64,000 nucleotides of DNA from Liolophura sinensis (taxonomy: Eukaryota > Mollusca > Polyplacophora > Chitonida > Chitonidae): the NCBI RefSeq assembly GCF_032854445.1, contig NC_088303.1, positions 23,629,501 through 23,693,500 on the forward strand, read 5' to 3'. The notes below the pieces were generated by a model. It saw only the letters and a list, made by a program, of their open reading frames with translations. It was not told the origin of the DNA and made no database searches. Position 1 is the stretch's first letter. Each line of letters begins with the position of its first letter. Of the stretch, positions 19,285 to 61,082 are shown in pieces. The translations under genes were made by a program, and so were the position numbers.

Positions 19285-20431
19285 TTAATATTTGTAGCAG
19301 ATAAGGAATTCTGGGTAATACTGGTCCTTGTCAAAGAGGACAAAGATGCTAGGCTTTTGTGGATTGTCCGTGCAGGAGTCGAACAGTTGGTTGGGTTTTC
19401 CCGGATCCAAAGGGGGTGGACGCCTCAATTTCTCTTGCCCCTTTGCAGTTTTACCGACCAGCACGCGGGCGTAAAACATGAAGCGATGACCGTGTTGATC
19501 TGGTTTTGCGTAATGGTTAGATTTGCTGGCATCCACAGCAAAGTAAGCCCCATTGCCATATAAGGCCCCAACAGCTGAGCCATACAGCCTCCAGTCAAAG
19601 TTCTGTTCACAGATGGGGTCGACAGCTCCTGGCGAAGTGCCATGAAATAACTTCTTCTCGTTAGTTGTTCCTCCTTCGTACTTACGCTTCATTATATTGC
19701 TTTTCCTGAAAAGAGAACCCAAAGCAGTTCAAACATTTGAAAAGAATATCGAACAATGAAATCAAGTTGGTACTATGCAGTGTATTGCTCTGTCTCGCCC
19801 TTTGGTTATAATAATTCAATATACACATGCATTCTCTTTGTCTAAATTTTAAATGTTGGTTAGATAATTCTAACCAACACCTGGATAATTTTGTAGATGA
19901 ATGTTGATTAAACAGTTCCACGCGAAGACACCTTTCTCTCTTTATCTAAAAGGTTTACAAGATAATTCTAAAAAAAAGCAAAACAACTGGACAATTTCTG
20001 TAGTTGAATGCTGATTATATAGTTCCGCGCGAGGACATAAGTGGTGATGCTAAACCTAAATAAGCCTACGTGAGTCACACATCAAGGTATACATCAAGGT
20101 TAGGCTTGTCTAGTGGTGGCAGTGATGTAAAGCCGCGGCAGAGAGCGGCACATGCGACGTAACGACTATGATACAGTGTATGGCAAAGTGGCGTCATAGT
20201 GGGAGATCTACTTACATTTGAAACGTCAACCACAGGGAAGGGTTTTGTACGCGCTTTATGTAGATAATGGAGGCGTTGGGCATTGTCATGAGAAAAACAT
20301 CCTTTACTGTAGCAAACTTGTCCGACGAGGAAGGGATGTTCACTATTTTCATGTCATAGGTGCCCATTGGTCCCCACTCAACAGGTATGTTCGTGGAAGT
20401 CGTAGCTTCCTTCTTGGCCTTCTCATGCAGC
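19285..20431 (-). CDS. MIB-PARP exons 20-21: PARP catalytic domain, H-Y-I type
   Basis: Exon 20 (20431-20216) has the N-terminal lobe with [17 protein letters not shown]. Exon 21 (19705-19285) carries KKLFHGTS (His1120), [17 protein letters not shown] (Tyr1153), [27 protein letters not shown] (Ile1219) and the closing [11 protein letters not shown] followed by TAA. Ile in place of the catalytic Glu of PARP1 and tankyrase marks mono-ADP-ribosyltransferases such as PARP7, 10 and 12. The domain looks intact. Confidence 0.93.
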
Positions 20432-23400
20432 CTGAAACGTGTCATTGTGCGGATAGACTGATAATTTTGTGTATAACGTTTGCATCACACTTTCAGTTGT
20501 TTCATCTACATGTGCCTATGATCAGATTCCTCATCCCCTCCAACTCAAGTCCATACACATTTATTTACTTGGACTACAGTTTAGACAGCGAGGAACATCT
20601 CATATCTTTATATCTATGGACACAACCCTGTGCGTGTAAACGCACGTGAGTCGGGCCATGGCGGCATCTGCACGCCAACAGGGATCTAGGGAGATGATTT
20701 TAAAGTTCCAGGTTCTAGACGGCAGTATACAGAATAGGGTTGAAACAAAACCAGGTGAGGATAGAAACAACTTTACACAGTGCAATTTGTATGGGCGCCT
20801 TGACGCTTCCATGACCTAATGGAAAGAGCGTCAGGCTCCCAGAAAAATGGTTGCTGCCTCGGTTGGCATTCAGAACTTAAAGGTTAGAGCAAAGAAACAG
20901 GACTGGTTTACCCAGTGTCAGTATAATGTTACTGATCATGTCTGATGTCTTCGGCTTTCAGTGGCGGCAGCACTTTGGTGGCATGTACTCGCCCTGCCAC
21001 AAGTAGACAAAGCATATGCACACACACCGATAAATTGCTTAGTGCAATACGATGTAAAACCCATAAATTAAAAAGCAAACATTACATAGCGCAGTATATA
21101 TGGCACCCTATTACAACTACTCAATACAGCAAACCATATGTTGTTTTTGATAACACCATATAACTACCTGATAGCTTTCTTCACATCTTCAGGGCCCATG
21201 TAGGCTGGGCGTCGTCGTAAACGTGTCTCTTTGTCTGACTGACAATTTCTCTGTTTCAGATTGGCGAAGTCAACTTCATAACGAACGCTGTCGATTTCGA
21301 TGATCTCCTCAGTCATGACACTGGAATTACACCAATAGGCCTGTTCTAGTTCAGTCTGCAGCTTAGTAACCTGCCTCTTGTCCTTTTGCTTTTCCTGGAG
21401 GAGAAAAAATTATTAAAATATTTCATTACTGTGAGAGATGGTTCTAGAAATCTTGGACGATCGATTGTGCACATCATACACCTGCAGCTTAAAGATCATG
21501 GGAAATCTTCATCAGATACAATCCTTTGCAGCTAGCTCAGCAAAGAAATATTTCCATTGTCTACATTATAAATTTCTTTTAGAAAAATGGACCCCTTGAC
21601 GCCCTCTATATTTAAACTCTAGAAATTTACCTAATAACCATCACCAATACCATCGCCATTATCATTACCAATATCATCATTGCTATCACCACCACCACAA
21701 CCATCATCATAATTACCTCTAGATGTTAGGAATTACCTTTTGACCACACGGTACCCAGCCGTCATCACTCTCCCAGTACCACGTCCACTGAGTGAGAAAG
21801 CGCTCATGGTCATCTCCGCTTACGTATGAGACTGTAGACAGGCGACGAACTGGGATGCTCATATCGTCAGTTTTGGCTGTCATTGTATCAAGGTCTACCG
21901 AAAACATCTGACTGAAAAATACATATTCAACACAAACGCATATAAACATTCTGGCAATCAGTCAAGTCTTTCACACAGACAAATATCGCTCAGTATGAAA
22001 TTAAGTAAAAACTGGTAAAATGATAACATGAAGTATCCCATTTTATGTTTGAATCAGTTTTACAACAAAGCATGGATGGACTGTAACCAACATAATTAAT
22101 GCTTGAGACAAACAGATAAGCCTTTAGCTCTGTATTACTCGGAATTACACACAAGTATTCTGTATTACTCAGAATTACACACACGTATTCTGTATTACTC
22201 AGAATTACACACACGTATTCTGTATTACTCAGAATTATACACACGTATTCTGTATTACTCAGAATTACACACACGTATTCTGTATTACTCAGAATCACTT
22301 ACAAGTATGTCTACACTAAACTTTACCAATACCATGGACACAGAAGCATGGATAATCCACGGAACCCTTGGTTACAGAGCCACCCTTCTAAAATAGCTGA
22401 GTAGGATCCAGTCGTGACAGCACAGCAGATCTGCTCCAGCATCTACCTTCAGACCTCAAGTGCCCTGACTTACCCTTCTACAATAACAGACCACGATCCA
22501 CTCTTGACATCACAGTAGCTTTGCTCCAGCATTAACTCTGAAGAGCTGTGATCACCTATACTGTCACAGCCCTATCTTGTTCCATAAGCTTACCTCGAAC
22601 ACCTCTGTACTTTCCTTGCTGGTCCAACTTTCCTTGCAGTCCAACTCCAACCGCCATGATTGAATGCATAATCCTAAGAGTGAAGCGATAATTATCACTG
22701 CCACTATTAGGCAAGTTAGACCTTTTGAAACGCAATACTGGATAATTTTTTAACATCAACCTCCCCAGTAATGACACAGAACTAACCCATAATGAACATT
22801 GATGAATAAAAAAAATTCTCAGACAATTAAAGAATAGATTAAACAAGATGTACACAATATAATAATTGCTAGTAATGTCAGTAGTTATCTCCCTTGTATG
22901 GGCCGTGAGGAGTATGCATTCAAACATGGCGGTTGGAATTTATCCAGTTTCATGCTTGTGTGTATTTATTAGTGATGACTCATGGGAACACCTATCTGAA
23001 ATTGATACCTGAAACGACTGTGACTGCGGACAGACAAATTATTTGGTGCCCAGCAGTGGTATATTAAAGCTAGCAAGGCAATTACAGAGGTGTTCAAGGT
23101 AAGCTTATGGAACAAGACAGGACTGTGATAGTATACCTAATCACAGTCCTACAGGGTTATTCCAGCATGTATCTGCAGATCTCATGTGCCCTGACTGGCT
23201 CTTCTACAATAGCAGAACACGATCCAGAGTTGATCACACAGTACCGTAGCTCTGCCTCCTCATGCATTTTCTTATCACAAGTTCCTTAACTTACCCTTCA
23301 ACAATAACAGAACACGATCCAGTGTTGACTCTGGAGTAGCTCTGTTCAAGTAGCTGAACATTATCCTCGCTGAAGGAGCACCATTTCACCCCACGTTGCA

Positions 23401-26400
23401 ACGTTTTGTACTGCCACACGTAGGGTAGTAGCAGATGGTGATTTGGGCAGTCTTCTCCAAAGGCACATCGTCCACTGATGAAGTACAGGCAGATGTCTGC
23501 ATCAGTCTCATCACTTATGTGTTCAGTACGTTCAATGGCTGCAGAATCTGAGGGCTTCGGTGGGGTTGGCTGGGGGGTGGATGGCACATGTGCTTTGGCG
23601 CTTCCCCCTTTGCTCGTTGTTTCAGCCTGTCGTTGTGGCACCTGAACCTGAGTCGAGCTGTTACGATGGAAACACAAGACCATAAGACACTCTGGTAACG
23701 ATAATAACGATAAAAGGAAGAAATCACATTCCACTCTTAAAACTAAAATGTAACATTTAACACAGTAAATATCATAAGGAGTGACTGGACTTATTAGAGT
23801 TATCTGACCACTTTGATAAAGCGTTCATATCTTAACGCTCGTTCAGTTGTTCGCATTCCAGCTCCATTAACAAATGGTTATCAGCATTTTAAATTAACAC
23901 ACGAAACAGCGTTTTAAAAAAAACAACCCTTTTTATGGAGTTGGGATATGAAAAAATTTGAATTTAGAGTCTGGAAACATTATCCCTGAATAAAACTGGC
24001 CCGATACATGTAACTCTTATAAGTCCAGGCACTCCTGGTGATCTGTGCAGTGTTAAATATAACACTTAAGTTTTAAGAGAGTCCTTGTATTATATTCTCT
24101 GGCAGTAAAACAAAAGCTGTTTTCCACCCCACTTTTGTACTTACTGTGTTGAAGAAAACTGTACGATCAATCCCTTGATATGTGGATCATCAATTAGATC
24201 TAGGGGTGACTTGCCCTGGTGGTTCATGTGGGAGAGGCTGGCGCCCTGCTGGGCAAGAAAGCAGGCCGTAGCGACACACATTTTACTTTCATCTTGACTC
24301 ATGCTGAGCTGACCATGAATCTGGAAGGGAGCGAAATGTTATTCTTCTCAGTTTCCCGTCGGAATTTTCTTTTAAAGCAAAACATACCAAATTGCTAATG
24401 TTTCTTTCCAATGAACTATTTAAAGTGTCTTACACCTGAATTATTATTATATATTTTTTAAATTTTTTTAAACCAAATAAAAGTTTAGTGAAAGCTGGTC
24501 TACACAGAGCGTTAGCACGTCGACATTATCGAGAGAGGACTAGGTTGGTGTGACCTACGTCACGATTAACCACGGTCTTTAACGGGGGAGGTATTTTCAA
24601 TTTAAATGTTTCAAATATTCAGTGTATACCAAATACGTTCGGCTACACGTATTTAAATCGTTATAGCCGGTCTCTAAGCGACGTTAATGTTATCAGATGT
24701 ACAGTCATGAAGTAAATAGGTAAAGACTACGTCACATTCTCTTCGCCCAGTCGAATAACGGCGTGTTTGATCGAAGACAATTTTTTTTAAGATAACTGCC
24801 TCCATTCGCACCAGCTCTTTCCTCCGTCATGACGTTTTATTTTACACTTAACTGGGCGAAATTACACCGGAAAGATTTTTAACATTCTGCTTTCGCTGGA
24901 AATATATGTTTCACCCCAGATGATGTCTGATCCTTTTATCCCTGTTTCAGTCTTAACTTTAGCACATGTATCTATATATAATTACAAATTTCCAGAACGT
25001 ATCTTGTATTCCTGGAAATTCATGACAGCAAATTCCAAACCTCGTCAAGTAAGCCTGGCGATATTTCGGTGAGATTTCTAATTTCTTCACAACAAACTAT
25101 CGCATCAGTGTGAGGTGCAAATACGTATCCCCGTCTTAGTTACGGCCTGTACTAACGGCGAATTTTCTAATTACTCAAACACGAACTATCGCATCAATGT
25201 TAGGTGTAGACACTTATCCCTGTTCTAGTTACCGCCTGTGTTAACGGCAAAGTTTCTAATTTCTTAACAACGGACTATTGCATCAATGTTAGGTATAGCC
25301 ACTTATCCCCGTTCTAATTACGGCCTGTAATTAGATGTTAGCTTACGGCCTGTAATCAATGTTAGGTGTGAACACTCATTCCCGTCCTAGGTACCGCCTC
25401 TACTAACGGCGAGTTTTCAAATTTCTCAGCTACGGATTTTCGCATCATTGTGAGATGCAAACACGTATCACCGTCCTACTTACGGCCCGTACTAACGGTG
25501 AGCTTTCTAACTTCTCAACAACGGACTTTCGCATCAGCGTCAGGTGCAAACAGGTGTCCCCGTCTTCATCTTCAACATTCAGGTCGGCGCCTGTGGAAAT
25601 ATCAAAGTATCACATAAATAGCTAAATACACCAACGTCACATCAAAACACCAATGGTTGCTTCAAATCACACCAAAATTAAACTGTCACAACCACAATTA
25701 CACTGTTCATCTAAAGTCACCGACACAAACCACCACAACCACCGTTACACTGAAACGCAAGAGATACAGTGAAATAAAGCCTTTCATTTTAAAAGATCTC
25801 CCAGAATACGAACACATAGTATGGTGTTAACGCGATGATCTATCTGTATGACCATGCAACGCAGCAAGCAGTAAAGCTGTTAACACTACAGCTCTTACCT
25901 TTGGTAAAGAGATGCTCTATCTATCACAGCAAGCAGTAAAGGTGTTAACACTATAGCCCTTACCTTGATAACGAGGAGCTGTACAATATAAGTATCATAG
26001 ACACAGCCAGCAGTAAAGGTGTCAACACTATAACATTTACCTGTGGTAAAGAGATGCTCTATCTATCACAGCAAGCAGTAAAGGTGTTAACACTATAGCC
26101 CTTACCTTGATAACGAGGAGCTGTACAATATAAGTATCATAGACACAGCCAGCAGTAAAGGTGTCAATACTATAACTCTCACCTTTGGCAACAGGAACTG
26201 TACAATATAAGTATCACAGACACAGCTAGCAGTAAAGGTGTCAACACTATAACATTTACCTTTGGTAAAGAGATGCTCTATCTATCACAGCAAGCAGTAA
26301 AGGTGTTAACACTATAGCCCTTACCTTGATAACGAGGAGCTGTACAATATAAGTATCATAGACACAGCCAGCAGTAAAGGTGTCAACACTATAACTCTCA

Positions 26401-29400
26401 CCTTTGGCAACAGGAACTGTACAATATAAGTATCACAGACACAGCTAGCAGTAAAGGTGTCAACACTATAACATTTACCTTTGGTAAAGAGATGCTCTAT
26501 CTATCACAGCCAGCAGTAAAGGTGTCATTACTATAACTCTCACCTTGGGCAACATGAGCTGTACAATATCTGTATGCCCCTGAGACACAGCCAGCAGTAA
26601 AGGTGTCAACACTGTAACCTTACCTTTGGGAACTATGAGAGCGATATGCCCCTGAGACACAGCCAGCAGTAAAGGTTATGTTACCTTTACCTTTGGTAAC
26701 GGGGAGCTGTACAACATCTGTATGATAGACACAGCCAGCAGTAGAGGTGTCAACACTGAAATCTTACCTTTGGTAACGAGGAGCTTTATAAGAGCAGTAT
26801 CAACTGAGACACAGCCATCAGTTGAGGTGTCAACACTGTAACCCTTACCTTTGGTAACAAGGAGCTCTATCAGATCAGTATGCCCCTGAGACACAGCCAG
26901 CAGCAAAGGTCTCAACACTGTAAGCCTACCTTAGGTAAGAAGGAGTTCTAAGAGAGCAGTATGCCCCTGAGACACAGCCAGCAGTTAAGGCCTCAACACT
27001 CTCTTAGAACTCCTTGTTACCCAAGGTAGGCTACCTTAGGTTAAAGGAGTTATAAGAGAGCAGTATGCCCCTGAGACACAGCCAGCAGTGGATGTGTCAA
27101 CACTGTAACTCTTTTCTTTGGTAACAGGAGCTCTATAATATCCATATGATAGACTCCGCCTGCAGTAGAGGTCTCAACAGTATAACCCTTACCTTTGGTA
27201 ACGGGCAGCTCTATGATATCTGCATGATAGACTCAACCAGCAGTAGATGTGTCAACACTGTAATACTTACCTTTGGTAACGGGGAACTCTACAATATCTG
27301 TATGACAGACTCAACACTGTAGCCCTTACCTTTGGTAACAGGGAACTCTACAATATCTGTATGACACACTCAACACTGTAACCCTTACCTTTGGTAACGA
27401 GGAACTCTATGATATCTGTATGGCCCTTGATCACAGACAACATGAGAGGTGTGTGTTTTTTGGTGTTTCTAATGTCGATGTCCGCTTTACCCTGGCAATA
27501 GCAAATTAAACACAACAGTGTAAAATGATTTTGACAAACAACTTACGCACTTTTTAATCAACCACGCTAGGTTGTTTTCAGTGAATTCGGTGTGTCTAGT
27601 CAAAAAGTTGAGTATACAATTTAGCCTATCGTTTTAGTCGAATCTAATAAAACCTGCAACATTTGAGCATAGCCAAAAGATTCGATTTTTTTTTTGATTG
27701 GTGTTTTACGCCGTACTCAAGAATATTTCACTAATACGACGGCGGCCAGCATTATGGTGGGTGGAAAACGGGCAGAGCCCGGGGGAAACCCACGACCATC
27801 CGCGGGTTGCTGGCAGATCTTCCCACTTTCGGCCGGAGAGGAAGCCAGCATGAGCTGGACTTGAATTCACAGCGACCGCATTGGTGAGAGGCTCCTGGGT
27901 CATTACGCCAAAAGATTCGAGTCTAGTGACAGCATAAGTCTGGAGAGACAGATATTAAGTCTCATCATGTAGGCCAGTTTAGTGAAACCGGCGTGCAAAG
28001 TGAGGCAAAAAAACGGGTCAAATAGGTCCGAAAAGATAATGAGTAAAATGAGACACCCGATTCAAGTTAGGCAGATGCTTCTAGTCTGGTAGTTGAGTCT
28101 AGTTAGAACTGATGCTGGACACCATCACTGTATCTATGCAAGTGAGACAGGTAATTCTAGCGAAACGTCTGAGTCAAGCGAAACGTCTGAGTCAAGAGAG
28201 GCAGGTGAGCCTAGAAGATACCTTGCGTCTGTCCAACATCATTGAAAACTGTTAACTGCTTCTCTTTGCATGATTCCGTCCAGTTTTTCGTACTTTGTAT
28301 ACTTTCTTAGTTCTTTTGGTGGTTTGTGTTATACGTCATTTTTGGGAATTGACCTTACGATTAATGACTCACAGAACCCCCAGAAAAAGCGGTCGGGTTG
28401 GAATTTTTCTTTTTTTAAGCAGACAAAAAAGAATAACTGCCAGAAAAAGATCTCGGGCCCCGAAATAACAAGCCAATCGGATTACGCTTTATTTTGTTTG
28501 AAACACTCATGCATGTGACACTATAACCCGGTGATTATCTCGGGGCTGGAGATAACTAAATCCGGTTCCGTGATAATCAAAATCATTTAACCGCAGGTAT
28601 CGCGATTTAGACGAAACCACGAACCAGGTTGTATTCCGACTGGCTGACTCTCTCGGGGCCTGAGATCTTTTCCTTGGAGTTTTTCTTTTTCGACTGCATT
28701 ACCATGATTAAAACAGTTTTAAATAGTAATATTTAAGACAGAACAAAGCAAGGGTATAATTGCGATTTTCATGTAAAATAAATCCATAAATCTATCCGCA
28801 AATGCTGGATAGAAACTTACCACAGTCAGCAACGTGTCACAAGTTTGCTTGTGGCCATTCAGTGCTGCTAAGTGAAGGGCAGAAAATCCATCCTCCTTCT
28901 GGATGTCAACAATTTGTCGACATCTCCGTAATACTTTCTCGATCACACTGTGATGAAACGAAAATAAATACACTTGTTATAAATACGAAGATATATGTAA
29001 GACAAGGATGAATAAAAGAACAGCACACTAACAGCAATAAAGATAAAAAAGATCCAAGTTTAAAACCATGATACTTTGCCGATAACTCACAAGTTGTTTC
29101 CCTCTTTTGCTGCAACGTGTAGAACGTTGAAGCCATTCTTGTTTTGTACAGTGAAGTCGGTGCTTGGATAGTTCACTATCATGTCTATGATTTCTCTATT
29201 GCCCTTACGAATGGCGTCGTGAAGCGGTGTGTCCCCAACAGAGTCCTGGAGATAAAAACACAAAGTCATCTAACCAGAGTGTCCAAAAAGAACAATTTCT
29301 CTTCTTCTATTGAAAACCCCTGTGTTATAAATGAATAAAAAAACATTAAACGAGAACTGTATCAAGATATCAAGACAAAACTCGGCCATTCATCAAAAAA

Positions 29401-35400: not shown

Positions 35401-38400
35401 ATAAACAGTAAGCATGCTTGACAGGATTTCAACTTTGGCAGGAAATATGTCGGTCACAGTGAATACATTTGTAAATACATCCTTTTTGTTGTGTGTTTGA
35501 GTGAAGATATAAAAGATATAACAACAAAGCCTTCGGTTGAGTTCAAGGCTGAATAATACATACTAGAGGCCCTGGGGCATTATTTCAAAAATTTGTTTAT
35601 TGATGACAAATTTACCTAATTTGTCATCAATAAACAAATTTTTGAAAATTTTTGAGGCTGTCATAAAAAGTTTGCATTGAATTCATAGTCAATGGTTTCT
35701 CTTAATTTTAAGTCTCTCAGTCCTGAGGCCGTTAAGTATGGGAAATGTTGCTCGTATAATGGCTACCTCCTCGCAGTTCTTGATGTAAACTGTCATAAGG
35801 CGTTGAAGCAATACAAAATGATCACCTTCACAGAGTTTATACACTGTGATGTATTAGTGCTGATGGCTCACATATAGTAAAGCATAACTGATAGTAACAT
35901 CAATAACGGAAAAAAGTGACATTGCTTGGTGACAAAGCAATTTATCACAAGTAACGAAGAGAGAACTTACCACTGCCATTAAACCATTCCATCCTCCATG
36001 GCCTTTCTGTTCTTTCTTCACTTTGTTCACATCGCCTGATATTCGTACAATATCATTAACAGAGAACATCTGAGCCTGTCGACATATAAACCATACACAT
36101 ATCATACTTTGAAGTCAATTTATGTACGCTAATACTTATAATGTATATTAAAGGGAAGGAAACGTTTGCTTTGTTAATATTTCTTTTGACTTTACTATGG
36201 ACGACGTCCCTTCAAACCTTGCAAACACAAAAGGATACAGAAGTGCAGACAGGCACTTAACAAGCGCTTTTGTACAAATTTGGATTTTTTGACAAGGTTA
36301 TGTGTATCATATTGGTGTAATTTGTTGAAATTCTCAACATAATATTGTCCAAACATCTCAGAATTATGAGAAATATACAGTTTGTTCAAATTAAGCAATC
36401 TCAGAATGCATTTTGGCTTGAAAGTAAGTGAGATTTTTTATAACAAAATTATCGGATTATTTAATTAGTTGTAACAAACACAGTTGTTAGACATTTAGTT
36501 CCACTTCTCTTCTCGGATTTCTTACCCACTGCCGCCTATCAACATGTTCTCGCTACAATATGGCTGAAATATTACCGAAGTGGCGTTATGCCATAGTCAT
36601 TCATTCCCTCATTTTTTCGGATTTATTACCCAGCGCCTCCTGTTTTAAATATGTTCCCGCCACGATATATCTGAAATATTTCCGATGTGGCGTTAAACCA
36701 TAATCATTCATTCATTCTTTCTTTCGGATTGCTTACTATGTCTGTGTAATTTTACAAAGTATGATCTGGTCCAGACAAACTATGCCATTGTGTCTGAACC
36801 CAATACCCAATTTCTCAAAACCGAGAAACACCGAAACTGACGGGAACGGTGTCTCATTCAGTTTGACTCAGACAGACAGACAGATATAAAATTGCTGGCG
36901 TTCCATTCATTGATAGACATAGTCTACATTCATGTATAGCAGGTAATCTAAAAACACGCACAGGCTACAGGTCATGGGGAGTAGCAAAACATCCACTGGA
37001 AAAGGAGTTCAAGCAAAAACAACAGGTAACCTAGAAACATGTAGGGCATAGTTCGAGTCGAACCAGGCTGCCAACCCTTTTGACACAGAGGGAACAGCGA
37101 AAAAAACCTTACCTTGTTCAAAGCACCTGGATGGAAGCGGAACTTTGTCCACTTGTCATACTGTACCCAGACATCACCATTGTCCATGATGTGGTGAACA
37201 GTTCCTACCTGCCCCAAGTGCTAAAAGAGAAGGTATTACAGCCAAGGAGTGAAGAAATTACAATAAATACAGAGCACATATACTGAAAAGAAATAGCAAG
37301 AAAATTCTTTGACTGAAAAGAAGATGCACAGAAATGAACTAATGCTGTTACAGAACTAATGTAGTAAAATGACAAGGAGATATAAAGTGTCGCTGCACTG
37401 GTATTGCAAAAGAACTGTATCGTCCAAATCGTACAGCATGGCAAGTATTTGATTTATTTATTTACTTGATTGGTGTTTTATGCGATACTCAAGAATATTT
37501 CACTTATACGACGACGGCCAACATTATGGTGGGAGGAAACTGGGCAGAGCCCGAGGAAAACCCACGACCATCCGCAGGTTGCTGTTAAACCTTCCCACGT
37601 AGGATCGGAGAGGAAGCCAGCATGAGATGGACTTGAACTCACAGCCAACTCACGGAGGAGAGGCACCTGGGTCATTCCGCCGCGCTGGCGTGCTAAACCA
37701 CTCGGCCCCCACCGGTAAGTAGTTACAATGAATAATTGACCAAGTTACAGTGATGATTTGCAGAGATGTCATGCTGGTTACATTGATTGAGTGCTTGGGG
37801 TTTAACGTCGTGTGTAGAAAAGACAAGTCACAGAAAAGATGTGTAGAAATTACAAGTTATGGTAAAGATATGTAGAAATGCAGTAAGCATGTAATGTAAT
37901 TACCAGACGTTACAGTGGAGAAGCAATTTACAAAGCAGGTGTTCAGGGACGGCCAAAATTCAAAGTGCAGATGTACCTAATTGACTAGAGGGTGCAGTAC
38001 AGATGTACTGAAATGACCGGAAATTACAGAGCAGAAGTAATGGGATGGCGGGAAGACACAGTCCAGAGCTACTGCCATGCACAAATGTTAGAGAACAGTT
38101 GTGCTTAAATGACTGAAAGACACAGTGAAGCTAGGCTGGAATGACAAAATCTGAGGGACTTGATGTACCAGCAATGAGGCTTCTATATTTCCGTTTCCAA
38201 AACAGCAATTTTGGATAAAAGATGTGGGTCATAAAAATACAGTTGTATTTGATCCTGATCATAAGAACTATCTGGTAAGTCAACGGCATGCATATAAGTA
38301 CAGTTAGGCTGTTGTAAACAAATCATTCGCAAAAACCTGTCAAGGTATCAAAGTAATTACTTACAGTGCTGATAATAATAATACTAAGCAATGTTTAGAA

Positions 38401-41400
38401 CATTATGATGGATAGTTACGGTGTAATTAACTATTTAATTAGTAACAATACACTGTATATGATGACCAAACATCCAGTCTATAGACATAAATGATATGAT
38501 ATATCCTTACCTTTGCCATATTTGGTATCCAACCGCCGTGACCTTCCTGCATGACCTTCACTACGTCTACATCTAGGCCAACTCTGACTTTGTCACCGAC
38601 CTTGAACTCTCCACTGGATGACACAGCCTCATTTACCTTACCTGCACAAATTACTCCATGTATTTATTATATTTTACGTTTTGTTCTGTATTTGTTTCAA
38701 TTGTAATTTTATTTTCCCATTTTTTTACACTAAGTTCTAAATAAAAACATTGAGAACAATGAAGCACTCCAAGATATAGGTAATACTCCTAACAGCGTAT
38801 GTGCCGCTCTCTACGCTCGCTTTATATCACTGCCACCACTAGACAAGCGTACCCTTTGGAGACTTGTTTAGTCTTAGCCTTACCACTGGTGTCCTTGTGC
38901 GGAACTATTTAATCAGCATTCATCAATAAATTGTTTCAGGTGTTGGTTAGAATCATGTTGTGCACATGTTAGATAACATGAGTGAATGGGTATAAAGCAT
39001 TACTAGAAACAAAGGTTGAGACAGTTTTTGTGTTTTCTGACATCACAGCTTCATCACAGTGACCCCTGTGACCTGGGCATTGTTCAAGATTTCTGTACAA
39101 ATTGAGCTAGTAGTAACAGTGATGTAAAACGAACGAAAGGATCGACGCATTCGCTGTAAGGAATATGACACAAAAAAATCAATTATTTCATGTCACATTT
39201 TGATTAATACATGTACTTTTCAACGCAAGTGTTGTTTTTTTTCTTTTTGTTTCTCTTTTTTCGCTTTCTTTTACAAGAAGAGACCACACTAGACCAAATG
39301 TATCTATGCATCGAATAATTATCTCACATAAATTTTAAAAAGTGTACGTCTTTATTTTTCTGATGGTTTCCGTGGTATCGCGGTTCAGAGTAAGCCAAAA
39401 CGTGTACACTGACAAAACTGAAAGCCGCGCTATGTTATTAACTGTAATCAATCAGAGACGAGTTGTTTCAGTAACCCGAGAAGGCAATTGTCTTCGCTGA
39501 CGTTACCCAAACGTTTTGCGTTTTAGCCATATGAGAATTTCAGATTAAAATTTGATTTACTAAGGATGTCAGAAAAAAAAATGACTGAGGCCGTTGAGGT
39601 CAGTTTTTACAATTCTCCATAAATAACTAAGGTTATTTACGAAGTTTCTATTTTTTGTCTTTTCTATATGATAACTCAGTTCAAAATATATAAACAAGTT
39701 CAGTGTACATCATGTGCCTTTGAAATTTACGGCCCCGAGCTCCAATGAAAGTTTAAACAATGTACAAAGCATCCTTTCAGCAGAGTTTGCCCTTTGACGA
39801 AAAATCTGCAAAAAATGGTATCATGAACTAGACACACGACTATGCACACAAACACACAACTAACTGTCACTCTTTATATGATCGATGCTTGTAAAGCGAT
39901 AGCGGTGGGCCGTCGTCTGCACACGTACTCTCCTTCGGCAGCGCAACAGCGTAAACATATCACGGAGTTGGATCAAGTTCTAATAATATGGGTAGTACGC
40001 AAAAGAAAGGAACGTCAAAACCATTACCAGAAAACTTTAAATATTCAAAACAAACCGAATCTGTGCACAGCTTCCAACTTGGTCTTTGCACAAACACCAA
40101 TCCATTACATTTTATGGTATTCATCGGGATTTTGACTCGGATGTAGGAAATATTTAAAGGAAAAGAAAATTTGAGAAAATGACACTTCTGGGAAGAAGAG
40201 TTCTACCAAAAATGTATGAACTGCACTTTGGCGGTTTCCGGCGACAATTTTCCTCTGAACACAGAAGACTTCAGGGCTAGTTCTTAGCACTGACTTTGAT
40301 TTTGGCGCTGACTTTATTTATAATTCATCAATCTTTTTATGGCATGCAAATGCGAGGAAATGCATACCCTTTTCAATGATATTTGTTTGATATTTAAATT
40401 TTCTTCTCCTTTAAAGGATTCTTGTCCGTTGTGAGATTCGCAAAGAACACAGTATAATGTCCTACAGGCTTTATACATTCAGGTGTGGCCGATGTTTACG
40501 ATTTTTGAATGCTGTATTCCAGCATGGTACATGGTTTAAATACTGATATCACTCAGTCGCCTAGAACATACGCTGCAGTTTTCCTACATCAGTGAAAACT
40601 GTTGACTGCTTCTCTTTGTATGGTTCCGTCCTATTTTTTTACTTTATATACTTTCTTAGCTCTTTGACTGTTTGAGTTAAACGTTATTTTGGGAATTGGC
40701 CTAGCCATTATTGACCTGGAACGTCCATCTTGGTTGACGACTGGAATACGAATGTCTGTTTCGATGCATCCATTCAAAGTGAGAACTTAACCATTTCCTG
40801 GATACATGGCCCACGTGTGGTTGCTTAACAGTGGAGCTGCTATAATTGTGTCTAAACTGCTTACCTAACACGGGTAGATGATCCTTGTAGTAGAAGCCAC
40901 CCGAGGCCTCCTGCACATACTTCAGGTCCACTTTACCTTTGTAACCCACCCGGTAATTATTTTTCGACCCCGAGGACCAGACGACACTGACGCCGCTCCG
41001 CCCGGTGTCTGTGCCCCAATTCATGACGTTTACCACCTTACCACCTTTACCACCTAAAATGAAAAAAAATAGTTGTGTATCAGTAAGAAGTAATGTAAAT
41101 GACGAACACCTGAACAATAGTTGTACATATGTTACATATCACCATCAACATATTTACGAAATCTTCCCATCCACGAACAATTTGCAGCGTAATGACCCAG
41201 GAGTCTCTCACCAGTGCGGTCGCTGTTCAAGTTCAGCTCATGCTGGCTTCCTCTCCGGTCGTACGTGGGAAGGTCTGTCAGCAACCTGCGGATCTTCGTG
41301 GGTTTCCCTCAGGCTCTGCCCGGTTTCCACCCACCATAATGCTGACCGCCATCGTATAAGTGAAATATCCTTGAGTACGGCGTAAAAACACAATCAAATA

Positions 41401-44400
41401 AATAAATCAAACGATTTGATCGTGGTTCTTGTGTCCCTGTTCTTGATTTGCTTTGGAAATGAACGTGGAAAATTCCTACAGAAAGGTTATTTTAATTGTG
41501 CGGTTTAACGCCGTACTTATCATGTGAAAGACGCATTCTTTACTAGTGATATAAATATGAACTTACATAAAACTTTTCTCCGACACAACAGACATGGATG
41601 TATGGCAGCTGGATGAAGAAAATGCCTCACTTCTATACATTTCGCAGCTACTACAGCCCCACCCCATCATTGGTCTCGACATTTCTACTATTAACTTCAG
41701 GATTTATTTATTTAGTTATTTCACTGGTGTTTCACGCCCTACTCAAAAATATTTCACATGTACGAGAGCCGCCACCATATAGTGAGAGGAAACTGGGAAA
41801 AGTGCGGAACATACAGGTATACACTTAAGTAATAGTATAAAAGATGGTGACTAAATTATCGAAACATCTAACATGTGATTACCTATATTATTCCATATTT
41901 AAAAAGTAGATAAATACACATCTTTCTTCCTTCCCTTCACACCTTCCCGTACATGTATTTCAAGCCACGCAAAATCCATTTTCCTCATGAAATAGTATTC
42001 GTGCATTCAAAATGTATATCCCACCGCCTTTGCTCATACCTACACTCGCGTCAGTTAAATGAGTTCTTTTCTTACTGCTGGTGATGTGGCTGTTCCATTT
42101 GTACTCATGATACTGATTTAATTCATTCATCTAGAACATTCTTTGTGTCTTTCTGTCATCACTGAAAACTGTTTATTGCTTCCTTGGCAAGAAACCGTCC
42201 TAATTGCTTACATTCTATGCTTTCCTACCCCTATGGTGGTTTGTGTTGGACGTTCTTTTGGAAATTGGTCTTGCGATTTTTGTCCCAGAAACTCTATTTT
42301 GGTTTACGGCTGATATATGAATGTCTGTTTTGACGGAAGGTTCATTTTGGTTTACGGCTGGTATATGAATGTCTGTTCGACGATAGGTAAATTTTGGTTT
42401 ATGTATGCTATATGAATCTCTGTTTCGACGAAAGGTTCGTTTTAATTTACAGCTGGTACAGAAATGTACCTTTTGACTCTTAGGCTTATAGTCATCAGAG
42501 TAAATAAAATATAACCTAGCTTATAGAATGAGTTACTTCATGTCAAATAATTCTAGTTCGTATGTTTGCAGACTTACCGTCTTGATCTTCCCATTCCCAG
42601 TCTGGTCCCCTGACAACCTTTGCGCCAGGATAGATTCCCTTCGCTTCTACCTTTGATCCCCCCTCCCTTTTGGGCACCGTGAATCTGCAATCACATAGAT
42701 ATACACCCGCTTTCTTACAGCTCTTCTGTCCACGGTTATAAAATTCTGTTTATTTCCACAGATACAATTAGACTGTAATACCGTCATATCTGCGCGTGAC
42801 ACTAGAACATCATGCCGCGGACACCAGACAAGGCCACATTCTCGCCTCGGACAAAAATACCGTGAGCCAAGATCACAGATCTATTAGGCCAGTTTCCGCA
42901 TTGAACCTCTGCCTTTACACAGTTTGTATGCACCATGCGCCACATACATAACATTCGTTTAGCTTAACCAAGAAGAGTTATCTTCAAAGATCTTGTCAAT
43001 AGGCTGCCTATGTTCACAATTCTCACAAACCCCATTCGTTCAGTTTTACCTCGTAAATATGAGACATTCAAATCTGCTGTGAAAACAAGTTCCTTTTTTA
43101 TTTTGGTGGATCATTTTCAGATCACGCACAGGTGAGTATTTCTCTCATATGATGAGGTTAGGGACACAACTAACCATTGCGTTGATATCACGAGAACGTT
43201 TTTTGAAGCAGCTGTAACTTGTGCTTGATGTGTACGAACATCTACTGAAGACATATGCCACCACATGAAATGTAATTTGAATGTCCTACACTGAGGTACG
43301 TTGTCTGCTTGGTTAACCTGGTGTGTCCACAGTAAAAGAAAGCTAAAATATGAAGTAAGATTCATCACAGAGACAATTGAATACTATTCCTAAAAAAAGA
43401 CTTTCACAGTTTTAGAAGTTTTGAAGTGTGCTCAAGACATTCAAATGTTTAAAATCTATAGTGGACCTTGTTGACCACACTGACAGTGTTTAACCTCTCT
43501 GACGTCACATCGATTTTTTCCTCACGTTCACCAGAAGGAAAGAATTGTTGAGAACATTACTTCAGTACCATTTTACTCATTTGGAAACGATCTATTCTAG
43601 CATTTAATGTCGTGTTTACAGTTGGAAAACCTTCATGTGAGGTCAGTTCCTAAACACAGGTAGTATGGTCCATAAAGTCCACCTCAGAATTCAACATTAA
43701 AATGCCTTTAACTCTCTTGAAAAAATAATATAAAACGTATTTTATGTATAGTTTTAAGCAGTCTAACTAATGATGTCTACTTCGATTTTGAGCTGTGTTT
43801 TCCTATAGGAAGCGAGGGCCACTAGATATCTTGTTAATACTATCCATCGTTTGATTGCTGGAATAAACGCAGAACAAAATAATCTTACAAACCCATTGGA
43901 AGAAGGTGTGTTAAACCTCTGAAATGGATGAGACAGCTCGTGCTTGTCGGCCATGTAACAAATACTGCACAAGTCGAAGTCGTAGCATCTGGTACATTTC
44001 CACCTCATTCCATAAACCCCACTAGTTCCACACGAATCACAAGTGATGTTTGAATGTCTCATTCCTGAATCGTACACACAAGAAAATCTCTGAATTTGAC
44101 ACCAATAGCCAGTGAAGAAAAACGGATTGTTCGTGAAGTCATCATAAAGAGGGCATGGAGAATTTTGAAGGGTATACTTTTGCTAATCTAGTTATTTACA
44201 TTCGTATTATACATTATGAATAAAATAATATTTTCTTTCCATGACATGTTGGGGGCCTCCGTAGCTCAGTTGGTTAGCGCCCTAGCGCAGCGTAATGACA
44301 CATCAGTCTCTCACCAATGCGGTCGCTGTGAGTTCAAGTCCAGCTCATGCCGACTTCCTCTCCGGCCGTACGTGAGAAGGTCTGACAGCAACCCGCGGAT

Positions 44401-44891
44401 GGTCGTTGCTTTCCCCCGAGCTCTGCCCGGTTTCCACCCACCATAATGCTGGCCGCCGTCGTATAAGTGAAATATTCTTGAGTATGGCGTAAAACACCAA
44501 TCAAATAAATAAATAAATAGTATCCTTGCCAAAGAATAACAGTTTTTGAACATTTTTTCAACCATTTTCCGTAGGAATGTTCATTAAGTATTTCGTTATC
44601 ATAAATCTTTCAAGCCTACCGATGGGTGCATTGTCCAATACACGCAGATCAAATTCCCCCTCGGCACCCACACGGTAGGTATTACGTGAACCCGAGTCCC
44701 ACAGCACGTCAACAACTTTGTCTGCTAACAGTAGACCCAACATGCCCATGGGACCCCCAGTACGAATGACGGTGCCCACGTGACCTTCTCCGCCATCCTG
44801 ATTGGCCCATTTCCAGTCGGGACCACGGACCACACGAAGCCCCTTTTCCATGATCTTTACCACTATATGAATGATTCGATCGTCCAACGTT
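19285..44891 (-). CDS. MIB2-like scaffold fused to CCCH-WWE-WWE-PARP mono-ADP-ribosyltransferase (21 exons, 1,238 aa)
   Basis: Exons in transcription order (high to low): 44891-44620 (first usable ATG at 44851), 44064-43893, 42684-42578, 41053-40865, 38641-38511, 37220-37113, 36069-35971, 35246-35081, 34071-33935, 32611-32463, 31071-30915, 29245-29091, 28947-28821, 27491-27389, 25590-25484, 24320-24145, 23657-23295, 21911-21737, 21394-21168, 20431-20216, 19705-19285 (TAA). All introns are GT-AG, every phase agrees, and coding length from the ATG is 3,717 nt. Order: MIB/HERC2 (~1-77), ZZ (~79-125), MIB/HERC2 (~150-230), SH3_15/MZM modules (~245-385), ankyrin repeats and cap (~405-770), one CCCH (828-846), WWE (~850-925), WWE (~935-1012), PARP domain (~1030-1238; triad His1120, Tyr1153, Ile1219). 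The MIB2 RING fingers are absent. Predicted role: scaffold-directed mono-ADP-ribosylation in cytoplasm or at membranes. The start is uncertain: exon 1 has a good acceptor at 44892, so a 5' exon probably lies upstream. Confidence 0.88.
20805..21065 (+). mobile_element. Degraded SINE-B relative in intron 19
   Basis: CCTAATGGAAAGAGCGTCAG (head), TGCCTCGGTTGGCATTCAG, CCCAGTGTCAGTATAATG, GGCGGCAGCACTTTGG and AGTGCAATACGATGTAAAAC follow the order of SINE-B blocks with many changes. Confidence 0.55.
21168..21911 (-). CDS. MIB-PARP exons 18-19: end of WWE1 and WWE2
   Basis: Exon 18 (21911-21737) completes WWE1 and starts WWE2 with [17 protein letters not shown] (Trp937, Trp945). Exon 19 (21394-21168) continues with [18 protein letters not shown], the typical second half in which a YxVDF..M/L.Q.N motif faces the ADP-ribose. 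WWE domains in PARPs and some ubiquitin ligases bind ADP-ribose units. Phases 2, 0, 2 all agree. Confidence 0.87.
21640..21715. repeat. Imperfect ACC/ATC trinucleotide-rich tract
   Basis: Runs of ACCATC, ATTACC and ACCACC just downstream, in gene sense, of exon 18. Simple repeat. Confidence 0.7.
22127..22310. repeat. 30-bp tandem repeat
   Basis: About six near-identical copies of TTCTGTATTACTCAGAATTA plus CACACACGTA in intron 17. A multiple-of-three period keeps frames open on both strands; not a gene. Confidence 0.93.
22375..23290. repeat. Degenerate copies of the exon 17 3' end in intron 17, with a ~50-bp inverted repeat
   Basis: 22482-22540 and 23186-23250 match the last ~60 bases of exon 17 (23295-23350), sharing blocks such as ACAATAACAGA.CACGATCCA; 22378-22437 is a weaker copy. 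The first keeps the TTACCC donor context. Separately, 22567-22617 and 23078-23127 are inverted copies (AGAGGTGTTC.AGGTAAGCTT then ATGGAACAAGA). Confidence 0.75.
23295..23657 (-). CDS. MIB-PARP exon 17: Pro/Ser linker, CCCH zinc finger and first half of WWE1
   Basis: First exon past the fusion junction. Its acceptor (AACAG|C) supplies one base to the phase-2 donor of exon 16, as required. A low-complexity linker rich in Pro, Ser, Thr and Gln is followed by one CCCH finger: Cys828, Cys836, Cys842, His846 (C-x7-C-x5-C-x3-H), typically RNA-binding in PARP7/12/13. WWE1 then begins: YVWQYKT (Trp853), KWCSF (Trp864), closing with SVIVEG at the donor (phase 2). Confidence 0.88.
24145..34071 (-). CDS. 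MIB-PARP exons 9-16: ankyrin-repeat block with Mind-bomb cap
   Basis: Exon 9 gives [18 protein letters not shown], exon 10 [20 protein letters not shown], exon 11 [20 protein letters not shown], exon 12 [20 protein letters not shown], exon 13 [17 protein letters not shown], exon 14 [19 protein letters not shown], exon 15 [17 protein letters not shown]. Exon 16 gives [20 protein letters not shown] then KSPLDL, which corresponds to the segment just before the RING fingers in MIB1/MIB2. Ankyrin blocks bind protein partners. Introns after exons 14 and 15 contain copies of the exon's own 3' part. Confidence 0.88.
25070..25483. repeat. ~90-bp tandem copies of the exon 15 3' half in intron 15
   Basis: At least four diverged copies of the block running from CCG.ACTAACGGCGA (donor side) through CTCAACAACGGACTTTCGCA to TCAGGTGCAAACA. 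The copy nearest exon 15 starts immediately below its donor. Confidence 0.85.
25880..27388. repeat. Tandem array derived from the exon 14 3' half in intron 14
   Basis: Many copies, most keeping the TTACCTTTGGTAACGAGGAG-like donor segment, a CTCTA.GATATCTGTATG segment and a CAGCCAGCAGTAAAGGTGTC segment. Adjacent spacings measured at 81 and 72 bp. Between 25880 and 26520 the units are organised in a longer higher-order repeat. Read on the minus strand, several copies still resemble an ankyrin helix ([11 protein letters not shown]). Confidence 0.88.
27686..27907 (-). mobile_element. SINE-A with 13-bp target-site duplication
   Basis: Reverse-complement SINE-A in intron 13: TTTTTGATTGGTGTTTTACG, GGCGGCCAGCATTATGGTGG, CCACGACCATCCGCGGGTTG, CAGCGACCGCATTGGTGAGA. 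CCAAAAGATTCGA flanks it at 27673-27685 and 27908-27920. Confidence 0.9.
28204..28375 (+). repeat. Dispersed repeat D, copy 3
   Basis: CATTGAAAACTGTTAACTGC, TTCTCTTTGCATGATTCCGT, TATACTTTCTTAGTTCTTTT and GGGAATTGACCTTACGAT align with 40580-40710. Confidence 0.8.
31430..32370. repeat. 57-bp minisatellite in intron 10
   Basis: About 16 copies of a unit like CTCACTTGACACTACAGTAC then AATGATCCAGGTTGAGCTAA then CACTGTGATGTGCAAAA; period 57 counted on adjacent copies. Non-coding. Confidence 0.93.
32618..33065. repeat. 43-bp minisatellite touching the exon 10 acceptor
   Basis: Units like TGAGACAACCACACAAACCG then TTCAACAACACAGACGACAC. The array begins within ten bases of the acceptor of exon 10 and so includes its branch-point/polypyrimidine region. 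Confidence 0.88.
34420..34555 (-). mobile_element. SINE-A fragment in intron 8
   Basis: ATTTATTTGATTTGTGTTTT, ACGCCGTAGTGAAGAATATT, CAGCGGCCAGAATTATGGTG and CACGACTATCCGCAGGTT; the tRNA-like end is absent. Confidence 0.8.
35081..38641 (-). CDS. MIB-PARP exons 5-8: SH3_15 / MZM-type modules
   Basis: Two alternating module pairs. Exons 5 and 7 encode GDKVRV...[11 protein letters not shown] and [13 protein letters not shown]...GHGGW. Exons 6 and 8 encode [26 protein letters not shown] and [24 protein letters not shown]. These are the Mind bomb middle domains. Exon 8 ends in an acidic linker with five consecutive Asp. Exon 7 may start at 36069 or 36075 (both in frame; the latter adds two residues). 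Confidence 0.88.
35583..35647. repeat. Perfect 30-bp inverted repeat (hairpin) in intron 7
   Basis: Arms 35583-35612 and 35618-35647 are exact reverse complements with a 5-base loop. Arm core: GTTTATTGATGACAAAT. It would form a stable stem in RNA or single-stranded DNA. Origin unknown; possibly a tiny MITE relic. Confidence 0.95.
36495..36718 (+). mobile_element. Two tandem SINE-C 3' ends in intron 6
   Basis: Two successive copies (~36510-36600 and ~36610-36718) of CTCGGATTTCTTACCCA.. through TGAAATATTACCGAAGTGGC, GTTAAACCATAATCATTCAT and ATTC repeats, typical of a molluscan tRNA-derived SINE tail. No head region is visible. Confidence 0.7.
37446..37712 (-). mobile_element. SINE-A, nearly complete, in intron 5
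   Basis: Reverse complement with tail side first: TATTTACTTGATTGGTGTTT, ACGACGGCCAACATTATGGT, CACGACCATCCGCAGGTTGC, GAACTCACAGCCA, and a tRNA-like head ending in ACCACTCGGCCCCC. Confidence 0.88.
37785..37815 (-). mobile_element. SINE-B tail fragment
   Basis: GAGTGCTTGGGGTTTAACGT is the reverse complement of the SINE-B 3' end. Confidence 0.6.
40558..40775 (+). repeat. Dispersed repeat D, copy 4 (longer)
   Basis: CGCCTAGAACATACGCTGCA, GTGAAAACTGTTGACTGCTT, ATATACTTTCTTAGCTCTTT, GGGAATTGGCCTAGCCATTA, CGTCCATCTTGGTTGACGAC, GAATGTCTGTTTCGATG. Located just downstream, in gene sense, of exon 4. Confidence 0.8.
40865..42684 (-). CDS. MIB-PARP exons 3-4: second MIB/HERC2 domain
   Basis: Exon 3 (42684-42578) carries [20 protein letters not shown]. 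Exon 4 (41053-40865) carries [20 protein letters not shown] and [13 protein letters not shown]. The KGKVDLK and GFYYKDHLP strings fit MIB2 better than MIB1 as I remember them. The junction between them is phase 1. Confidence 0.9.
41185..41410 (+). mobile_element. SINE-A in intron 3
   Basis: GCAGCGTAATGACCCAGGAG, TCTCACCAGTGCGGTCGCTG, GCAACCTGCGGATCTTCGTG, TGAAATATCCTTGAGTACGG and an AAATAAATAAA tail. Open frames here are SINE-encoded chance. Confidence 0.88.
41698..41800 (-). mobile_element. SINE-A 3' fragment in intron 3
   Basis: ATTTATTTAGTTATTTCACT, GGTGTTTCACGCCCTACTCA and GAGAGGAAACTGGG; diverged. Confidence 0.65.
42130..42470 (+). repeat. Dispersed repeat D, copy 5, with three ~55-bp terminal subrepeats
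   Basis: CTAGAACATTCTTTGTGTCT, CACTGAAAACTGTTTATTGC, GGAAATTGGTCTTGCGATTT, then three tandem versions of TTTTGGTTTACGGCTG.TATA with TGAATGTCTGTTT.GACG. The subrepeats extend the 3' end seen once in copy 4. Confidence 0.8.
43893..44064 (-). CDS. MIB-PARP exon 2: ZZ zinc finger
   Basis: Zinc ligands visible: Cys 86, 89, 101, 104, 110, 113 and His 119, 123 (C-x2-C...C-x2-C-x5-C-x2-C...H-x3-H), the ZZ pattern. Placement directly after the first MIB/HERC2 domain matches Mind bomb. Two donors lie close together: GG|GTTTGT keeps the frame with exon 3 (phase 2), while the stronger-looking GTAAGA four bases on would break it. Confidence 0.9.
44251..44520 (+). mobile_element. SINE-A, reference full-length copy, in intron 1 of MIB-PARP
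   Basis: tRNA-like 5' end GGGGGCCTCCGTAGCTCAGT then TGGTTAGCGC (A box) and GAGTTCAAGTCCAGCTC (B box). A conserved centre with CTGCCCGGTTTCCACCCACC and ATAATGCTGGCCGCCGTCGT follows, ending GTAAAACACCAATCAAATAA plus AAATAAATAAAT. It lacks an intact tRNA cloverleaf, so it is a retroposon and not a tRNA gene. Confidence 0.93.
44620..44891 (-). CDS. MIB-PARP exon 1: first MIB/HERC2 domain
   Basis: From the ATG at 44851 the peptide opens with [20 protein letters not shown] and continues GEGHVGTV, ending at [10 protein letters not shown]. This is the MIB/HERC2 signature ([10 protein letters not shown].[12 protein letters not shown]), which binds Notch-ligand tails in Mind bomb proteins. It is longer than the human counterpart by a [14 protein letters not shown]-type insertion. 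Donor is phase 1. Confidence 0.9.
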
Positions 44892-60118: not shown

Positions 60119-61082
60119 CACTAAAAAATAATAATCACCTGGGATTTTTATTGCTACTGGTGGTCATTTCCATTGTAAATACATGTATGTTTGACAGTTA
60201 CCTACTTACATGTAGACACAGCACGACTTCTTGTTATTTATTCATTATTTTTTTTAACCGTTTACATATAAATTGATATTTGACTCCAGTCAAAATTGAA
60301 AATTTCGGTATATTGCATAATTTACTGCCGAGGAAGTTCTAATTGAGATGGATCTGTTTGGACTAACAGTTATTAAGTGTCCCTAATTTTGACTTAATGG
60401 ATTTAAATTAAATTTAAAAGTTTGAGAGGAGTCTAAGGTGGGTTTTGGAATGGACCGAGTCATCGATAAAAACTCCTAATAATTTATGTGGTGAAGTATG
60501 TCAAGTAGTCGACCCAATTCTGTCGAAGTGGGATTTATTGTGCTGGGGTATAAAACGGTTTTCTTTTTTCAAATAACCTCGCTGCCGTCAAACTAGTAAA
60601 ATAATCTTCGAGATAAGAGTAAATAGCAATTTAATGTAAGTATGTAACAGGTACAAAACTAACTGTCCGCATGAGCATGTGGATTACAACGAGACAAAAC
60701 GGTTTATATGTAATGTGCTTACATAGATTTGTTGGAGTTTCGTATCTGGAGCAGAGCTACTTCAACAGGCCAAAGCATGCTCTATCGTCTTCGCAGCTTA
60801 CTAAAATGTGCTAGCCCGCATGTGTGTCACACGGCGTAAACTTTCTCGCATTGTTTAATCCTTGGCGACACAATCAGATCTTAATTCGTTGGTTACACCT
60901 CTAGTGTGTTCACACGTTACACTGTGTAATGGCAGTGTAGAACACAAGGATTTGTGACCAGGTCCGCACAGTTGTTGTTGGGTCCATCGCTTTACCTGTA
61001 GATGATTTATATACTAGAAGTGCGAGTCGTTTAATTGACGACTAAATTTGTTTTGAGATTCAAATACATCTGTAAACCGAAC
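60119..61082. other. Upstream region of the 61083 gene
   Basis: No gene supported. Likely holds the promoter of the downstream gene; no clear TATA box or repeat noticed. Confidence 0.4.

Follow-up and report, generated by a model that had tools for sequence, protein, structure and literature searches.

The window analysed here is a 64,000-nt stretch of the Liolophura sinensis assembly (609.46 Mb in 632 contigs), C9:23629501-23693500, where C9 denotes contig NC_088303.1. According to the available portion of PMC11068029, the published chiton genome was first named Liolophura japonica; the name has since been corrected to L. sinensis (PMC12441733). On the minus strand of the window lies a gene model in which a MIB2-like half is followed by a PARP12-like half. 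As rebuilt from the DNA, it runs from 44851 to 19285 through 21 exons, all with GT-AG borders and compatible phases, and has a coding length of 3,717 nt including the stop (1,238 aa) with zero internal stops. This reproduces a preliminary description of the locus, apart from its 5' end at 44891, which proves to be an acceptor-like site upstream of the start codon at 44851. The NCBI protein 'E3 ubiquitin-protein ligase MIB2-like [Liolophura sinensis]' (P0001; 1,240 aa) follows the same exon chain, junction included, with two extra residues (AQ) at exon 7, and setting the acceptor of that exon at 36075 instead of 36069 yields a translation identical to P0001 at every residue. The window contains zero N, so the gene is free of assembly gaps and a join produced as an assembly-gap artefact is ruled out. 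The exon structure is more than chance would give, exons with fitting phases being present in the paralogues.

Exon order and gene architecture

All exons are on the minus strand. Exon 1 (44620..44851) carries the start codon and the first MIB_HERC2 domain, exon 2 (43893..44064) the ZZ zinc finger, exon 3 (42578..42684) a linker and the start of the second MIB_HERC2 domain, and exon 4 (40865..41053) the second MIB_HERC2 domain. Each SH3_15 repeat is divided between two exons, the first repeat between exons 5 (38511..38641) and 6 (37113..37220), the second between exon 7 (35971..36075 in the NCBI model; the acceptor at 36069 in our 1,238-aa model lies 6 nt away) and exon 8 (35081..35246), which also encodes an acidic linker. 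The ankyrin region starts in exon 9 (33935..34071), as judged from the exon model and the paralogue exons, and ankyrin repeats follow in exons 10 (32463..32611), 11 (30915..31071), 12 (29091..29245), 13 (28821..28947), 14 (27389..27491) and 15 (25484..25590), assigned, like exons 1-6 and 8, from the exon model and Pfam. Exon 16 (24145..24320) encodes the last ankyrin/cap and ends at a phase-2 donor, GTAAGTAC, the same as in canonical MIB2 ahead of its RING exons. The fusion junction is intron 16 (23658..24144, minus strand; 487 nt), beyond which exon 17 (23295..23657), a 5'-truncated homologue of exon 1 of a PARP12-like gene, encodes a linker, the CCCH finger and the start of WWE1; both exons flanking the junction (24320-24145 and 23657-23295) lie exactly where they had been placed before. 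Alignment and paralogue exons assign the end of WWE1 and the start of WWE2 to exon 18 (21737..21911), WWE2 to exon 19 (21168..21394) and the start of the ADP-ribosyltransferase (ART) domain to exon 20 (20216..20431); exon 21 (19285..19705) holds the rest of that domain with its H-Y-I triad and the stop codon.

Several introns contain tandem arrays whose units combine the end of the preceding exon with the splice donor, at window positions 25925-27422 (intron 14), 25067-25475 (intron 15) and 22473-22571 (intron 17), and similar intron arrays occur outside the window in regions L022 (about 4549-5584) and L041. Across five gene models, such exon-end copies are found in 5 of 69 introns: introns 14, 15 and 17 of the fused gene (8, 1 and 1 copies), intron 14 of canonical MIB2 (13) and intron 1 of the PARP12-like gene (8). 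Random 30-mers recur in the same introns too, with means of 5.85, 0.25 and 0.45 for the fused gene, 6.95 for canonical MIB2 and 4.05 for the PARP12-like gene. Elsewhere in the window, a 20-bp unit is repeated 98 times in tandem upstream of the fused gene (46006-47967), and the plus strand carries open frames resembling parts of a C-type lectin domain at 7555-9242, as judged by eye from their translations, and a 284-codon open frame at 61035-61889.

Domains and conserved residues

Pfam assigns to the fused protein two MIB_HERC2 domains, a ZZ domain, two SH3_15 repeats, ankyrins, two WWE domains and a PARP domain, and detects in it neither RING families nor a SAM domain. The CCCH finger is absent from the Pfam table (E<=0.001), yet it aligns with zinc finger 5 of ZAP. 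Alignment with the PARP12 structure 2pqf identifies H1122, Y1155 and I1221 (P0001 numbering) as the H-Y-I triad, and the catalytic domain matches PARP12 at 1e-44 versus 1.4e-9 for tankyrase-2. Pfam and the 2pqf and ZAP alignments together uphold the initial reading of a RING-less MIB2 scaffold that continues in frame into CCCH-WWE-WWE-ART, the ART domain bearing an H-Y-I triad. Among the ADP-ribose-pocket residues of the ZAP WWE named in the accessible text of PMC8853533, the equivalents of W611, Q668, N670 and S673 are kept in our alignment and T675 is replaced by K, four of the five pocket residues being retained. On the MIB side, the ZZ domain retains its cysteines and 22 of the 24 residues invariant in eight RING-bearing MIB2s, and the whole half keeps 216 of 275 such invariant residues, versus 272 in the canonical chiton MIB2 and 215 in a RING-less copy, copy C. 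Read from the triad only, the protein is predicted to have mono-ADP-ribosyltransferase activity, and ubiquitin ligase activity would not be expected of a protein without a RING.

RING-less MIB2 copies accompany a canonical MIB2

Tblastn with Lingula MIB2 (P0122) and P0001 on selected genomic stretches located a canonical MIB2 at C9:20990986-21005926, with RING exons at 21,004,862-21,005,050 and 21,005,735-21,005,926, and three further copies on the same contig: copies C (23,511,498-23,526,190) and D (23,553,016-23,567,436), near-identical tandem MIB2-like genes without RING, and copy B (23,381,743-23,387,422), whose first exons alone were detected within the 40 kb examined. A whole-genome search gave at least 24 MIB_HERC2 matches, many of them on C9. 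The earlier proposal that MIB2 was turned into a PARP adaptor holds as regards the fused architecture, but it was a paralogue that was converted: with the RING-bearing canonical copy persisting on C9, conversion of MIB2 itself is rejected. All 16 exons of the fused MIB half have stop-free GT-AG counterparts in canonical MIB2, C and D when the phases of the fused gene are imposed; without this constraint, the top-scoring exon still has the same phases in 15, 14 and 14 of 16, respectively (43/48 in total). Synonymous divergence between copies C and D is about 1% (dS 0.01), hence a recent duplication, and the two may encode natural RING-less MIB2 proteins.

We searched for RING sequence with RING-only pieces of six MIB2 proteins, taking the best 12 matches per region. 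At canonical MIB2, the positive control locus, these queries score up to 100 bits, and in the 183.5 kb holding the fused gene, C and D (C9:23510001-23693500) the best match (E 0.75, 22.7 bits) is not significant. RING exons after exon 16 had been raised as a possible outcome; none is significant in this region, intron 16 included, and the same holds for relics of RING exons lying among the fused exons or beyond them. Just behind copy B, at about 23388531-23388695, four of the six queries give a weak RING match (best E 0.20, 24.6 bits), possibly a decayed RING. No PARP lies beside copies C and D among the at least 18 PARP matches in the genome. As RING-less copies thus occur without an adjacent PARP, the loss of the RING need not be coupled to the gain of a PARP.

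The PARP half is a truncated PARP12-like duplicate

A PARP12-like paralogue of five coding exons and 769 aa lies at C9:20489923-20483426, and its locus (C9:20,483,441) is the closest of at least eight PARP loci after the fused gene itself, at 72% over the last exon. Its exon 1 encodes an N-terminal CCCH tandem (PF25261), CCCH finger 5 and the start of WWE1, the WWE score staying under the curated cut-off because the exon holds only part of the domain. Fused exons 18-21 match PARP12-like exons 2-5 (4/4 with phases imposed, 3/4 with phases free), and exon 17 corresponds to the 3' part of PARP12-like exon 1, from midway through, with DNA similarity beginning near 23504 and protein similarity near 23620. 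From the introns kept in the PARP half, we infer that it was derived by DNA duplication rather than from a processed copy. In the 183.5 kb searched around the fusion, the N-terminal CCCH array of the PARP12-like protein gives a single match, at E 0.12 and with stops; both the RING and this array are thus absent from the region searched. The proposal that a PARP had replaced the RING end is partly supported, with the changes that RING-less copies exist without a PARP beside them and that the PARP side was itself truncated, its own CCCH array missing. Members of the PARP7 type comprise a ZnF_C3H1 finger, WWE and PARP, as given in the portion of PMC4245714 available to us, so the absence of the N-terminal array excludes the PARP12/ZAP type for the fused protein and leaves the wider clade.

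Evolutionary history of the two halves

In a tree of 22 MIB2 rows, canonical MIB2, the fused MIB half, C and D form one group (100/98), within which the fused half joins C and D (98/97) and the canonical copy stays outside; by this placement the fused gene is a member of the Liolophura MIB2 paralogue group. This set was obtained from an earlier one of 21 rows by dropping the very long rows of Actinia and Gigantopelta (1360 aa) and adding three molluscs. In the 21-row tree the fused MIB half again sits with the Liolophura rows, joined by the long Gigantopelta row, a placement beside RING-less chiton copies that is probably due to long-branch attraction. The Gigantopelta aegis protein concerned (P0159, 1360 aa) is a very divergent second MIB2-like protein that still carries the RING family PF13920. 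The PARP half and the Liolophura PARP12-like protein are sisters in a 16-row tree (100/100).

Nei-Gojobori estimates give dN 0.231, dS 1.29 and dN/dS of about 0.18 for the fused MIB half against canonical MIB2, and dN 0.290, dS 1.20 and dN/dS of about 0.24 for the PARP half against the PARP12-like gene; both dS values are near saturation, which makes a 'similar age' of the two halves a weak reading. The dN/dS ratios point to both frames having been conserved over a long time, and branch lengths in the 22-row tree are 0.59 for the fused MIB half versus 0.04 for the canonical copy. In the likeliest order of events, MIB2 would have been duplicated in the chiton line, the RING exons of one copy would then have disappeared, and part of a PARP12-like gene would finally have been inserted behind exon 16. 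The RING may have been lost either in one event before the fused gene split from C and D or in two independent events. The fusion is known in one species only, Liolophura sinensis.

The exon 16-17 join

With a score of 7.99, the donor of exon 16, ACA|GTAAGT, ranks 35th of 54 counted from the weakest, and it keeps the phase-2 site of canonical MIB2; with the phase imposed, copies C and D show GTAAAA at this place (4.98), and with the phase free another site is chosen in them. The acceptor of exon 17 reaches 2.88, where the median of the 54 is 8.68, and in a leave-one-out ranking only one acceptor falls below it, that of exon 20 in the same fused gene; the ranking without leave-one-out placed exon 17 last, and we quote the leave-one-out version. 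Nine AG sites inside intron 16 outscore this acceptor, among them 23735, which is also in frame and open, and the choice by NCBI of the weaker site may, at a guess, reflect RNA support. The open frame of exon 17 contains an ATG at 23683, which could start an independent PARP protein 475 aa long. Read-through of exon 16 meets a TAA immediately, within the donor, which might terminate a MIB2-like protein; in copies C and D the stop shortly after their exon 16 may have this effect.

We regard it as probable that this is a single chimeric gene, assembled from a RING-less duplicate of chiton MIB2 and a truncated duplicate of a chiton PARP12-like gene. The DNA shows the exon structure, the descent of both halves, their open and conserved frames, the absence of the RING and of the CCCH array from the region searched and the fuller parent copies on C9; that the halves are joined in one transcript we infer. 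It is unlikely, in our assessment, that gene prediction merged two neighbours, one a RING-less MIB2-like gene that terminates at the TAA, the other a short PARP gene with its start codon at 23683 and a promoter within the 487-nt gap. The weak exon-17 acceptor and the ATG in its frame fit such a pair, as do copies C and D, which have no RING in the searched region, no PARP among the at least 18 matches and a stop closely behind exon 16. However, the part of the paralogue that bears the start codon is missing from the PARP half, the exon-16 donor retains GTAAGTAC, unlike C and D, the phases match at the join, and the NCBI model is identical to ours there. The gap between the halves also lacks AATAAA and ATTAAA, but these are equally missing from the 2 kb past the fused stop, so that the poly(A) test is neutral between one gene and two, and we discarded it as uninformative.

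Quite improbable is a variant in which the fused transcript is a minor read-through isoform and the locus mainly yields a RING-less MIB2 and, separately, a PARP; the short intron 16 and the stop within the donor would keep both readings open, but all points raised against two neighbouring genes apply here too, and neither separate product is positively supported in our data. Finally, it is hardly credible that the locus is a decaying relic of two dead duplicates in frame by accident, for although it has evolved faster than the canonical copy and kept fewer of the invariant MIB2 residues, its 21 exons remain open with their splice dinucleotides despite dS above 1, dN/dS is low in both halves as given above, and the catalytic residues, the ZZ cysteines and most of the named pocket residues are retained.

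Occurrence and naming

Among the best 120 of 529 protein matches to the PARP half, MIB domains occur in P0001 alone. Conversely, PF00644 is found in P0001 alone among the best 120 of 1,966 matches to the MIB half, the other 119 carrying the RING family PF13920 as read from the Pfam column; this search scored the 7,985 candidates with most shared words, and the canonical Liolophura MIB2 protein is missing from these best 120. Scored against 746 candidates, whose length range did not include P0001, a 373-aa query spanning the junction had no match at E<=0.001. In the genome, the at least 18 PARP and at least 24 MIB_HERC2 matches lie less than 30 kb apart at the fused gene only. The preliminary view of the architecture as undescribed agrees with our literature searches, which reached a minority of subscription journals and found no report of a Mind bomb-PARP fusion protein, but the protein already exists as a named NCBI entry. 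Both NCBI and UniRef call it an E3 ubiquitin ligase, despite its C-terminal PARP domain and no RING being detected. On sequence grounds, the gene is half MIB2 and half PARP12 by descent, and fails one defining feature of each.

Discussion

In the mechanism that we propose for the chimeric gene, exons 1-16 of the MIB2 duplicate would be spliced in phase to exons 17-21 of the PARP12-like duplicate, and the MIB2 half (MZM/REP) of the resulting protein would select protein partners. The MZM and REP regions of the MIB proteins studied bind RIPK1 or Notch ligands; the fused protein probably no longer has quite the partners of MIB2, because the domains that bind them have changed more than those of the canonical copy. 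WWE2 would dock ADP-ribose, and the H-Y-I domain would mono-ADP-ribosylate the partner or the fused protein itself, so that partners would be marked with ADP-ribose in place of ubiquitin, alongside normal MIB2. More tentatively, and with considerable doubt on our part, MIB2 clients or related ones, bound through the MZM/REP/ankyrin half, might be mono-ADP-ribosylated in competition with the ubiquitin mark set by canonical MIB2, the WWE2 pocket holding the fused protein at ADP-ribosylated sites; if true, such a swap of enzyme class on a signalling scaffold would let the cell switch between two marks on the same proteins by means already built into its genome. The PARP lineage of the fused half also gave rise to the antiviral protein ZAP. 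The roles in Notch-ligand trafficking or antiviral defence put forward in the preliminary description would be hypothetical.

If the fused transcript is real, it is a natural counterpart of the domain swaps made by engineers, with the partner-binding half kept and the ligase end exchanged. The unfused parents and two RING-less, PARP-free copies on the same chromosome make each step testable by comparison. In addition, an E3-ligase name on a protein that is hardly an E3 misleads automatic annotation and E3 gene counts.

Comparison with known systems

With MIB2, a RING E3, the fused gene shares the MIB_HERC2-ZZ-MIB_HERC2 order, two SH3_15 repeats, the ankyrins and 16 corresponding exons, whereas MIB2 ends in RING fingers and the fused gene in a CCCH-WWE-WWE-ART tail with no significant RING in 183.5 kb. 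With PARP12 and ZAP (PARP13) it has in common CCCH finger 5, WWE1, WWE2 and an ART domain with Ile for the catalytic Glu, but where these carry an N-terminal CCCH array it has the MIB2 scaffold. In ZAP this N-terminal array binds RNA, and the fused protein is predicted to be an ADP-ribosyltransferase of the PARP12 group whose RNA-targeting part has been swapped for a protein-targeting scaffold. The CCCH-WWE ADP-ribosyltransferases constitute Clade 3E, with Ile, or Val in two members, at the third position of the triad, according to the portion of PMC2964712 at hand. Fusions of PARP with components of the ubiquitin system have a precedent in the UBCc domain of fungal PARP6/8 relatives and the U-box of Dictyostelium PARPs, which involve other domains and lineages and, in the parts of PMC2964712 and PMC4245714 available, come with no mention of a Mind bomb module. 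Tankyrases (ankyrin-SAM-PARP) resemble the fused protein in having ankyrin repeats ahead of a PARP domain, but they possess a SAM domain and an H-Y-E triad, whereas the fused protein has Ile in the triad and no SAM found by Pfam. Deltex combines WWE with a RING E3 ligase. The same combination is described for RNF146 in the accessible text of PMC8853533. As in the fused protein, the WWE domains of Deltex and RNF146 are tied to the ubiquitin system; there, however, WWE is part of a ubiquitin ligase, whereas in the fused gene it belongs to an ADP-ribosyltransferase to which the scaffold of a former ligase is attached.
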